A DNA stretch of 64,000 bases from Agromyces sp. Marseille-P2726 (GTDB lineage: Bacteria; Actinomycetota; Actinomycetes; Actinomycetales; Microbacteriaceae): NCBI RefSeq assembly GCF_902809835.1, contig NZ_CADDWM010000015.1, positions 868,001 through 932,000 of the forward strand, in the 5' to 3' direction. Under the pieces are notes generated by a model. The model had not been told where the DNA came from. It searched no databases and saw nothing but the letters and a program-made list of their open reading frames with translations. Below are positions 23,566-26,013 of this stretch, one piece after another. The stretch's first letter is position 1, and every line of letters begins with the position of its first letter. A program made the translations under genes and the position numbers.

Positions 23566-23616
23566 ATCGAGAAGTCGCGAATGGGCAGTACGACCCTGCA
23601 AACGCGACTTCTCGAT
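23566..23616. repeat. 51-nt inverted-repeat element, copy 1
   Basis: Arms ATCGAGAAGTCGC (23566-23578) and GCGACTTCTCGAT (23604-23616) are perfect 13-bp inverted repeats around a 25-nt spacer (starting GAATGGGCAG). It lies just after the stop of the DUF559 gene. The same arms and the same spacer length recur at 24606 and 24689. Confidence 0.9.
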
Positions 23617-23635
23617 CTCCAGGGAGTCGTTGGGC

Positions 23636-24553
23636 TCAGCTGCCGACCGGTCGCGCGAGCAGGTCCCGCACTCCGTCGATGAACGCCCCGCGGTTCGAGC
23701 CGAGATCGTCTGCCGTGACCTCGATGACGTGCCATCCGGCCGAGGTCAGGACGCGTCGTCGACGCAGGTCGTCCTGCCAGCGCCGGCGATCCGTGCGGTG
23801 GATGTCGCCGAGGTACTCGAATGCGATCTTTCGCTGCGGATATGAGAGATCGGGATGCACCACCACTCCGGACGGGAGCCTGACCGGCGCGTTCGGGACG
23901 GGCTCGGGCAGCCCCGCATCGACCAGCGTGAGCCTGAGGTGCGTCTCCTTCGGTGACTCCGCTCCCTCGCGAATCCGCGGGAGCGCCGCGAGGATGTTCG
24001 CGGCGCCCCGTCGCGGCGGCCAACGCCTGGCTGCAGCTCGAAGTTCACCGAGCGTCGCGATCGCAGGCTGGCGCTTCTGGCCGCGGCGCGGACCCGTGAC
24101 GATTGCGTCGCCGAGCGCAACGAGGTCGTAGAGCGTCAGCTCGGCCGCGAGCTGGCACCACACGTATGCCGGCGCCACGACCGGCAAGCCATCATGAAGC
24201 ATCGAGGGTAGGGCGACGGATGCCACGTGGCCGATGACGCCACGACCGCGCGCGCGAGTCGTGCCGGGAGCGGCGAGAACGTGTACCGATTCTGGCGTCT
24301 CGGGGAGAGGCAGCCCGAGGAGGGACGCGGCCGTGCCGTGGCTGAACACCTCGCCGGCCCTGAGCAACGGCTCATACGCGCGGCATCGGCCGAGCACGTC
24401 GTCGAGGTCGAGGTCGATCGAGCGGGCGCCGGTGAACGCGCGCTGGACGTCGGACGCGGCCAGCCTGTTCCGGCTCGCCTGGTGGAACTCGCGATCGCGC
24501 ACGCGGAATGCGGCTCCCGTCAGATGCGCTGGCAGCGCGGCACGTCGGGTCAT
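23636..24553 (-). CDS. DUF559 (Vsr-like PD-(D/E)XK) endonuclease-domain protein
   Basis: 305 residues from the ATG at 24553. The N-terminal ~190 residues resemble the winged-helix/AbiEi-like part of the actinobacterial DUF559 group (SHGTAASLLGLPLP, and VHVLAAPG). The C-terminal domain carries a restriction-endonuclease-like core: E203 in SPKETHLRL, D235 in HPDLSYPQ, E246 in AFEYLGDIH, and D261 in WQDDLRRRRVL, matching Vsr-like nucleases. Such genes are often present in several copies per Microbacteriaceae genome and have no proven function. Three identical 51-nt inverted-repeat elements surround it, and its ATG overlaps the hisS stop (ATGA). I infer a DNA-cleaving, possibly element-associated role; this is unproven. 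Confidence 0.8.
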   Translation of the reverse strand: MTRRAALPAHLTGAAFRVRDREFHQASRNRLAASDVQRAFTGARSIDLDLDDVLGRCRAYEPLLRAGEVFSHGTAASLLGLPLPETPESVHVLAAPGTTRARGRGVIGHVASVALPSMLHDGLPVVAPAYVWCQLAAELTLYDLVALGDAIVTGPRRGQKRQPAIATLGELRAAARRWPPRRGAANILAALPRIREGAESPKETHLRLTLVDAGLPEPVPNAPVRLPSGVVVHPDLSYPQRKIAFEYLGDIHRTDRRRWQDDLRRRRVLTSAGWHVIEVTADDLGSNRGAFIDGVRDLLARPVGS

Positions 24554-26013
24554 CCGGCCACCGTGCCAGACCGTCCGACGATGTGAGCTCGTTGTCCACA
24601 GCCGAATCGAGAAGTCGCAGATGCGCAGTCCGACCATGCAAACGCGACTTCTCGATCCTTGACCTGTCGCGGCGCCGCCCTAACCCGAATCGAGAAGTCG
24701 CAGATGCGCAGTGCAACCCTGCGAACGCGACTTCTCGATTCGGACGAAGTCGCAGGAACCTCAGTGGTCACGTTCGCGAACGCGTCGAAGCCGTCGGCGG
24801 TGACGCGGTCGAGCAGGGCGCGCAGGTTCTTCGCGCGACGCTCGAAGCGCACGCGGGTTCCGGATGCCACGAGCTCGTGCTTCAGCGAGAGCAGCGACGC
24901 GGGCTCGACGTCGGCGTCGTAGACGAGCACGACGGCGCGCGGACGCGACCCGTCGCGCATCTCGAGCAGGTCGACGATGCGCTCGAACCCGATGGAGAAC
25001 CCGCACGCCGGCACCTCCTGCCCGAGGAAGCGTCCGATCATGTGGTCGTAGCGCCCGCCGCCGCCGAGCGAGTAGCCGAGGTCGGGGTGGGCGATCTCGA
25101 AGATCGTGCCGGTGTAGTAGCCCATGCCGCGCACGAGCGTCGGATCGAACTCGATCGCCGCGTCGGGCATCGCGGCGCGGAGCGCGAGCAGGTCGCCGTA
25201 CGCCTGCTGGTCGAGCCACGCGGGCGGCGGCATCGCCTGCCCGGTCGGCGACGCCTCGCCATCGAGCAGCTGCCAGTCGGCCGCCATGAGCGCGTCGAGC
25301 TCGGCCGCCACATCGGGTGTCCCTGCTCCGTCGCCGATGACGCCGAGTTCGTGCAGTTCTGCGGCAACCCCCGTGACCCCGATCTTGTCGAGCTTGTCGA
25401 TCGTGATGAGCGCGCGCTCGCGCAGCTGCTCGGGCACGCCCCACGAGGAGAGGATCCGCGCGAGGATGCGCCGGTCGTTGATGCGGATGACGCAGCCGCC
25501 GAGACCGAGCGCCTCGAGCGTCGCGAGGGTCGCCGTGAGCAGCTCGAGCTCGGCAAGCTGCCCCGGCTCGCCGATGATGTCGATGTCGCACTGCACGAAC
25601 TGGCGGTAGCGGCCCTTCTGCGGACGCTCGGCCCGCCACACCGGCGCGATCTGGATCGCGCGGAACACGGGCGGCAGCGCGGCGCGGTGGGTCGCGTAGA
25701 ACCTGGCGAGCGGCACGGTGAGGTCGTAGCGCAGGCCGAGGTCGGCAAGTGAGAGTGCGTCGCCGGATGCCGCGGCCGCCTCGAGGTCCTCGGGCGTCAG
25801 GCCGCGCTTCATCACCGCGAATGCGAGTTTCTCGTTGTCGCCGCCGAGGCCGGCGTGCAGTCGCGACGAGTCCTCCATCACGGGCGTCTCGATCTCGTCG
25901 AAGCCATGCGCCCGATACACGCCTCGGATCACGCCGAGGGCGTGCTCACGGCGGGCCTTCTCGGCGGGCAGGAAGTCGCGCATGCCGCGCGGAGGGGTGA
26001 CGGATGCGGCCAT
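24550..26013 (-). CDS. hisS: Histidyl-tRNA synthetase with repeat-derived C-terminal extension
   Basis: 487 residues from the ATG at 26013 (GGAAG 10 nt upstream, better than the ATG at 26022). Class II motifs are clear: motif 1 region LPAEKARREH...RG, motif 2 APVWRAERPQKGRYRQFVQCDIDI, His-binding LVRGMGYYTGTIFEI and motif 3 GFSIGFERIVDLLE, followed by the anticodon-binding domain. The normal protein would end near residue 420 (FDAFANVTTEV). The frame instead continues about 65 residues through two inverted-repeat elements at 24606-24739 and ends at 24550, overlapping the DUF559 start. The extension composition (Arg/Ser/Cys) is unlike any HisRS tail. Core function is confident; the tail is likely accidental. 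Confidence 0.93.
   Translation of the reverse strand: MAASVTPPRGMRDFLPAEKARREHALGVIRGVYRAHGFDEIETPVMEDSSRLHAGLGGDNEKLAFAVMKRGLTPEDLEAAAASGDALSLADLGLRYDLTVPLARFYATHRAALPPVFRAIQIAPVWRAERPQKGRYRQFVQCDIDIIGEPGQLAELELLTATLATLEALGLGGCVIRINDRRILARILSSWGVPEQLRERALITIDKLDKIGVTGVAAELHELGVIGDGAGTPDVAAELDALMAADWQLLDGEASPTGQAMPPPAWLDQQAYGDLLALRAAMPDAAIEFDPTLVRGMGYYTGTIFEIAHPDLGYSLGGGGRYDHMIGRFLGQEVPACGFSIGFERIVDLLEMRDGSRPRAVVLVYDADVEPASLLSLKHELVASGTRVRFERRAKNLRALLDRVTADGFDAFANVTTEVPATSSESRSRVRRVALRICDFSIRVRAAPRQVKDREVAFAWSDCASATSRFGCGQRAHIVGRSGTVAG
24606..24656. repeat. 51-nt inverted-repeat element, copy 2
   Basis: Perfect 13-bp arms ATCGAGAAGTCGC (24606-24618) and GCGACTTCTCGAT (24644-24656), 25-nt spacer starting AGATGCGCAG. 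It lies 5' of the DUF559 gene and inside the extended hisS reading frame. Confidence 0.92.
24689..24739. repeat. 51-nt inverted-repeat element, copy 3
   Basis: Same 13-bp arms (24689-24701 and 24727-24739), 25-nt spacer starting AGATGCGCAG. Here the arms extend to 17 bp (CCGAATCGAG... ...CTCGATTCGG, 24685-24743). It lies at the hisS end and encodes part of its C-terminal tail. Confidence 0.92.

Follow-up and report, generated by a model that had tools for sequence, protein, structure and literature searches.

Among described systems, that of repetitive extragenic palindromic (REP) elements and REP-associated tyrosine transposases (RAYTs) most resembles the locus reported here, a nuclease gene framed by three copies of a 51-nucleotide (nt) palindromic element in a stretch of 64,000 nt from Agromyces sp. 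Marseille-P2726 (contig NZ_CADDWM010000015.1, positions 868,001 to 932,000), hereafter the window. In the literature, the RAYT gene is flanked by cognate palindromes, solo copies lie elsewhere, and inheritance is largely vertical (PMC3686654, PMC3116915), features that are common to the nuclease gene. Several palindrome classes occur around orthologous, syntenic RAYT genes, an "orthoswitch" (PMC3686654) that has its counterpart in a clade of nuclease genes described below, and orphan REP elements are explained by gene loss (PMC3686654, PMC3116915), to which the orphans found here can be likened. The two systems differ in enzyme and in element: RAYTs are Y1 HuH transposases, whereas the enzyme here is AbiEi-like and Vsr-like; REPs measure 20 to 40 base pairs (bp) (PMC3733652), whereas the elements here are mostly 45 to 65 nt long; and REP copy numbers are high, whereas those here are 1 to 7 per genome and family. 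Y1_Tnp (PF01797) was matched in 0/60 genomes of the genus, compared with 5/14 control genomes; because it has no Y1 enzyme, the system is not a member of the REP/RAYT group.

Palindromes without a dedicated transposase have been reported as CGTC-tagged REPs, from five other phyla (PMC3733652); the present elements exceed them in length and border a nuclease gene. A further likeness is to the AbiE type IV toxin-antitoxin system, in which AbiEi binds an operator of the form 11-N27-11, extended to a pair of 23-bp inverted repeats with 3 bp between them (23-3-23, 49 bp; PMC3985639). The window element is of the same size (12-N25-12, 49 bp, or 51 with one extra pair), and the protein is an AbiEi-like winged helix-turn-helix protein, as judged from weak profile matches, a Foldseek match to Rv2827c, and predicted secondary structure. 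Unlike in AbiE, a nuclease domain is present, no AbiEii toxin gene lies beside the window gene (by eye), and the element is found downstream and dispersed as well. The homing endonuclease I-Bth0305I, which we take to be Vsr-like, shares the fold of its catalytic domain with our protein, but here there is no intron, the recognition part is AbiEi-like, and the gene retains a long palindrome on either side. DUF559/MTES_1575 nucleases have a conserved nuclease domain in common with the window protein, which falls under the curated cut-off. Among the open-licence PMC papers listed in literature searches, none linked DUF559 or AbiEi-DUF559 proteins to palindromes in its title or abstract. We consider it probable that the locus represents a two-part system, a site-specific nuclease with a cognate palindromic element of ∼45 to 65 bp, REP/RAYT-like but with an unrelated enzyme, and possibly a kind of its own.

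Palindromes flanking the nuclease genes

Homologues of the nuclease are present in 56/60 genomes of the genus (E 1e-5). Sixty regions of 12 to 16 kilobases (kb), together with the window, gave a first set of 61 genes, which was scanned for any palindrome. Hairpins were found on both sides of 38 genes, on one side of 17, and on neither side of 6, at a density of 3.34/kb within 250 bp of the gene, compared with 0.07 to 0.46/kb in the farther full bins. Matched upstream and downstream hairpins accompanied 36/61 nuclease genes, whereas the other open reading frames (ORFs) of the same regions gave 0/512 and a random-interval control gave 4/6100. Measured against 203 pairs of background hairpins, the two hairpins had a likeness above the 95th percentile in 37 of the 38 two-sided genes, and 12 of the 17 one-sided genes had a cognate stretch on the opposite side that beat all 100 background windows.

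A second set, found with a 7-row homologue alignment, comprised 80 loci of named, mostly Microbacteriaceae genomes, including Leifsonia, Microbacterium, Cryobacterium, Agromyces, Humibacter, and Gryllotalpicola; at least six of these loci overlap the first set, and the closest named loci are from Agromyces species. Hairpins lay on both sides of 39 genes, on one side of 34, and on neither side of 7, with a density of 2.9/kb within 250 bp, 0.44 at 250 to 500 bp, and 0 to 0.19/kb beyond 500 bp; 32 of the 39 two-sided pairs were alike at score 13. A draw across the phylum gave homologues in 89/296 genomes (E 1e-10). The 27 loci examined had hairpins on both sides in 3 cases, on one side in 8, and none in 16, two of the three having matched pairs, namely, genome G455, which belongs to a different family in the order, and genome G521, from a family within the class; among the 16 loci from outside the class, the corresponding counts were 0, 3, and 13. 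The association of hairpins with the nuclease genes, and the diversification of the two together, is firm. The flanking pattern is general, extending over the genus, most of the 80 mostly Microbacteriaceae loci, and a few loci of other families. The earlier note had proposed, by analogy with REP/RAYT, a link between nuclease and hairpins, and had suggested testing whether copies cluster at such genes. The link is supported: copies are strongly enriched at the genes, though solo copies exist, and the link is further supported by the matched pairs, the co-diversification, the solo copies, and the lack of a Y1 match in 60 genomes.

In the window, the three elements have the form ATCGAGAAGTCGC-N25-GCGACTTCTCGAT, with 25-nt middles, and are recorded without strand. 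Element 1 (23566..23616) lies on the eno side, 19 nt past the stop codon of the nuclease gene; element 2 (24606..24656) lies upstream of the gene; and element 3 (24689..24739) lies 83 bp from element 2, within a 3' extension of the hisS frame. Their earlier description, as three copies with perfect 13-bp arms and a constant 25-nt spacer, one after the stop and two before the start, proved accurate, with exact arms in 3/3. Exact arms occur 6 times in the window, every one within the three elements, and 10 times genome-wide, corresponding to five elements; the remaining two, on contig C12 (104170-104220 and 104232-104282), are away from the gene. These occurrences are not due to chance, since a backwards control pattern was found 0 times in the whole genome. 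The C12 pair sits between PEBP-type and lysE-type genes (named by eye), and no nuclease homologue was found in the 11 kb examined around it. A search of 398 genomes of the family with the window pattern gave one other genome only, with a different 59-nt element, which shows the window palindrome to be lineage specific; the general pattern appeared once homologues were scanned for any palindrome, with a different sequence in each lineage. In Rfam, the sole match was mir-2518 (E 0.45), which was judged to be chance. A different repeat, a short GC-rich palindrome with the form GGATGCCGCG...CGCGGCATCC, is found at 23508-23533 of the window and recurs near eno in several genomes (loci L068, L069, and L143).

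The picture of two arms around a spacer stood only as far as the arms, which are exact. Among 130 elements of relatives, the inner part is largely base paired (74 to 86% at depths 13 to 20 from the outer end), so the element is better described as one long imperfect palindrome than as two arms and a free spacer. Covariation was examined in the GAGATGACGCG family, using its 24 copies that are 54 nt long, in which 11/20 pairs were fixed by the search pattern. Two-sided changes in the inner pairs numbered 27, compared with 14.8 ± 3.3 in shuffles (0/500 as high), and the covariation score likewise exceeded all 500 shuffles, whereas the number of pairs with two-sided change, 6, was not above shuffles (269/500 as high), nor were further pair types (100/500 as high). 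Inner pairing thus seems to be kept while the inner sequence drifts, as suggested by the excess of two-sided changes over shuffles.

The downstream copy lies a median of 13 nt past the stop codon, and the upstream element lies 69 to 187 nt (10th to 90th percentile) ahead of the start of homology. In 65 pairs, the upstream and downstream copies are in direct orientation in 28 cases, inverted in 22, and tied in 15. Tandem copies occur in relatives at a spacing of 74 to 102 bp and are near-identical at locus L065. The proposal that the three window copies are separate insertions is therefore supported in part: elements 2 and 3, at 83 bp, are spaced like tandem copies, so local duplication may contribute.

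The nuclease and its correspondence with the palindrome

The nuclease gene (23636..24553, minus strand) encodes a protein of 305 amino acids with an AbiEi-like DNA-binding part and a Vsr-like nuclease part of MTES_1575/DUF559 type. Codons 1 to 50 (24404..24553) are predicted to form a winged helix-turn-helix (strand 15-17, helices 18-24 and 28-31, strands 37-40 and 43-45), the predicted secondary structure of residues 9 to 45 fitting this motif. Codons 67 to 191 (23981..24355) match the AbiEi profile of PADLOC weakly (19.5 bits), and the N-terminal half is AbiEi-like, a likeness absent from the earlier note. The nuclease domain spans codons 200 to 300 (23654..23956); S200, E203, R207, D235, E246, Y247, H252, D262, and R265 are, among others, invariant in 18 homologues. 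A match to PF18741 (REase_MTES_1575) is weak at 22.5 bits, under the curated 38.2, but 17/18 homologues match that family at E 0.01. The gene had been called DUF559; this stands for 14/18 homologues, which match PF04480 at E 0.01, and for the MTES_1575/DUF559 type of the nuclease, but the window protein itself gives no PF04480 match at that threshold. One of the 18 homologues weakly matches NCBIfam NF058533, anti-phage protein ProA (E 0.0011).

An AlphaFold2 model of the window protein is confident, with a mean predicted local distance difference test (pLDDT) score of 91.9. The best Foldseek match is the AbiEi-like Rv2827c (E 1.4e-3, TM-score 0.35 to 0.38), followed by PvuRts1I and the catalytic domain of I-Bth0305I (E 0.06 to 0.11); for the latter (3r3p) the probability is 0.96 to 0.98 and the TM-score by target 0.54 to 0.63, at E 0.07 to 0.11. 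The ratio of nonsynonymous to synonymous substitution rates (dN/dS) is 0.13 to 0.24 in 11 pairs, and the gene is under purifying selection. At E 1e-5 the protein was found in 1/50,697 phage records and 3/72,556 plasmid records. A DUF559-type paralogue lies in a segment duplicated in inverted orientation (G000:C9, 12000-18000 and 59500-65500; L330 and L331), identical over at least 5.9 kb, in which no hairpins were found.

Nuclease and palindrome diversify jointly. The likeness of the elements is correlated with the identity of the proteins (Mantel r 0.62, n=55, 0/2000 permutations). A verified pair of hairpins was available for 65 genes, 37 in the first set and 28 in the second; among these, all gene pairs with more than 70% protein identity have a common element (score of at least 13), compared with at most 2.5% per identity bin among pairs below 50%. 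Under loose linkage the 65 genes fall into 19 palindrome clusters. With overall identity removed, residues 1 to 50 retain a partial r of 0.13 to 0.23 (permutation p 0.003 to 0.010), residues 51 to 120 an r of 0.08 to 0.12 (p 0.003 to 0.10), and for the nuclease part, residues 201 to 305, the partial correlation with the element is negative. The best tracker of element identity in this comparison is codons 25 to 36 (24446-24481): the top-ranked stretch of 12 residues begins at residue 25, whichever of the three identity thresholds is used, and covers the predicted helix 28-31. These effects are modest, and relatedness is controlled in part only. Recognition of the element by the N-terminal domain is supported by these data.

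Solo copies and the hisS-eno slot

An exact-pattern search of 60 genus genomes with three element families gave 12, 8, and 33 copies in 4, 4, and 12 genomes, respectively. The spans are nearly fixed within families (49; 48; 54 to 56 nt), though 31 lengths were allowed. A nuclease homologue (E 1e-3) is absent from 24/25 element loci of 2 to 13 kb each. Solo places compared with crude ORF calls (n=24) fall outside ORFs in 20 cases and inside in 4, of which a 750-amino-acid call at L011 looks spurious by eye. Certain solo copies occupy the same place in two species and are therefore inherited. In the comparison with loci lacking the element that the earlier note proposed, orthologous sites with and without element were found for the C12 pair and a solo copy of genome G018; for the latter the gap is 69 bp in G018, compared with 24 to 47 bp, with no element, in G000, G043, G036, and G031. 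At locus L029 (G029:C9, 3758-8767), four elements of the window family lie within 5 kb, and their surroundings gave no nuclease homologue. Two solo elements 1.8 to 1.9 kb apart, kept in G025 and G011 (L160, 2191-4103; L158, 1305-3210), have no nuclease homologue between them.

The window gene is bordered by hisS (24550..26022) and eno (22124..23404), both on the minus strand and named by eye from their translations. The usual C-terminal tail of the hisS frame is replaced, and the frame is extended by ∼60 codons through elements 3 and 2 (24550-24745), its stop codon overlapping the ATG of the nuclease gene (ATGA), which suggests translational coupling. By coordinates, at least 18 of the 59 genomes having eno carry the nuclease gene next to it. 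Thirty such slots were examined. Ten hold the gene, with a palindrome in 10/10; the slot gene is fragmented in G010 and, apparently, in G049. Among the 20 slots without an intact gene, an element was recognized by eye in only 2, an intact solo copy in G048 and a relic of gene and element in G052; neither result named in the earlier note as a refutation was obtained. By eye, the G007 slot has half an element, and hairpins in the slots of G021, G033, G034, and G042 are coding or from another repeat. In G001 and G021, hisS does not adjoin eno in the stretch examined, and G029, G058, and G025 have another stretch between hisS and eno.

In a tree of 61 proteins, 16 slot genes fall within one clade of 17 (support 100/99). 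The odd member is the G048 gene, which lies elsewhere with four elements. Since this gene nests in the slot clade while the G048 slot holds a solo element, it probably left the slot and one element stayed behind. The four slot genes that run the opposite way group in a single nested clade (100/100) and thus reflect one flip in place. The palindrome is replaced within the hisS-eno clade, which has 2 palindrome clusters at score 13, 4 at 16, and 7 at 20; this count depends on the threshold, and GC-rich hairpins from a different repeat (as at L068 and L069) may link some.

Outside hisS-eno, one two-sided case of solo and occupied slots sharing flanks was found among 34 solo places (L031/L118), and flanks are shared on one side between L028 and L120 and between L029c and L088. 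By rough estimate, uncomputed, such sharing is not above chance. In the two-sided case, a solo element (L031, G048:C29) and a nuclease cassette of another lineage (L118, G006) share both flanks and hence the same slot, with prpC/prpD-like neighbours (by eye).

Proposed mechanism, rival explanations, and significance

Under the two-part reading, the N-terminal domain would bind the dyad in the manner of AbiEi on its 23-3-23 operator, and the Vsr-like domain would nick or cut the DNA there or close by. Repair by recombination among copies of the element could then keep the flanking pair alike, might occasionally copy elements to new sites, and could let the gene be inverted, lost, or relocated; autoregulation of the nuclease gene through the upstream copy is also probable. 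We put forward only tentatively the full form of this proposal, a system independent of REP/RAYT in which an AbiEi-type domain joined to a Vsr-like nuclease would read a duplex dyad of ∼50 bp, cut it, spread and rewrite elements by break repair, and move, flip, or drop its own gene.

Several observations weigh against this reading. That the nuclease is the natural actor in cutting, spreading, and concerted rewriting of elements is something we infer from sequence. In the second set, seven of the 39 two-sided pairs fall short of a match at score 13, and 6/61 and 7/80 genes have no hairpin at the threshold used. Co-variation of protein and element reflects shared descent in part, and under the loosest threshold p falls to 0.003 for residues 51 to 120 as well. 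No Foldseek match attains E 0.001, all being weak. Copies number 1 to 7 per genome and family, and by coordinates those at listed homologues number 3, 4, and 7 per family (14/53), the majority not coinciding with a listed homologue. Orphan elements occur without a close cognate gene, four in G029 and one in G012, the latter genome having no homologue at E 1e-5. No exact insertion junction or target-site duplication was readable in the site comparisons, including those of the C12 pair and the G018 solo. Finally, when agreement of both flanks is required, the 61 genes are spread over no more than 26 slots, and 35 of them sit in four of these, so residence must be long and movement rare.

The main rival is autoregulation alone, in which the palindromes are AbiEi-like operators, the nuclease acts elsewhere, for example on foreign DNA, and copies lying downstream or solo are extra sites or by-products. 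AbiEi represses its own promoter via an inverted repeat of equal size (PMC3985639), the AbiEi profile is matched, and the upstream element lies at its 69 to 187 nt before the start of homology, as an operator might. An operator does not account, however, for a cognate copy just past the stop codon, for solo copies with no nuclease nearby, or for slots flipped or vacated with an element remaining, and beside the window gene, whose neighbours are hisS and eno, no AbiEii-like nucleotidyltransferase gene was seen by eye. We regard this explanation as unlikely. A type III toxin-antitoxin system was also considered and dropped because elements lie downstream and dispersed as well.

A selfish homing cassette, for which a solo element is an empty site that is cut and then filled by an element-gene-element copy in either orientation, appears improbable. 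The Vsr-like homing endonuclease fold, the finding of one slot both as element-gene-element and as solo element (G048), the one clade inverted in place, the mixed orientation of upstream and downstream copies, and the flanks common to the G048 solo and the occupied G006 slot would all be expected of such a cassette. Yet the genes mostly pass down without changing site, the palindrome at the G006 gene is another one and a single shared slot in 34 is about what chance would give by rough estimate, and the protein is nearly absent from phages and plasmids.

Terminators or mRNA-end stabilizers unlinked to the enzyme would explain hairpins close to 3' ends and the compensatory inner-stem changes (27 cells, compared with 14.8 in shuffles), but a T-run follows 0/108 flanking elements, 0/512 other ORFs have such pairs, and termination needs no lineage-specific sequence common to both sides of the gene and tracking a winged helix; this explanation is very improbable. 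If the elements were true REPs mobilized by a RAYT whose gene lies at another site of the genome, they would likewise be palindromic, mostly extragenic, and at times tandem, but this idea is so strongly weakened by the lack of Y1_Tnp throughout the genus genomes, set against the positive controls, that we give it hardly any credence.

If the two-part reading is true, a second, independently evolved enzyme would be tied to dispersed palindromes, and open questions of REP/RAYT biology, namely, the cohesion of the pair and the concerted switching of palindromes on both sides, would become testable with an unrelated enzyme. The palindromes would then be a likely substrate for MTES_1575/DUF559 nucleases. 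The 65 natural protein-site pairs, with their predicted targets, may allow the recognition rules of the AbiEi-type winged helix to be read, and their 19 clusters would represent many recognition specificities within one bacterial family.

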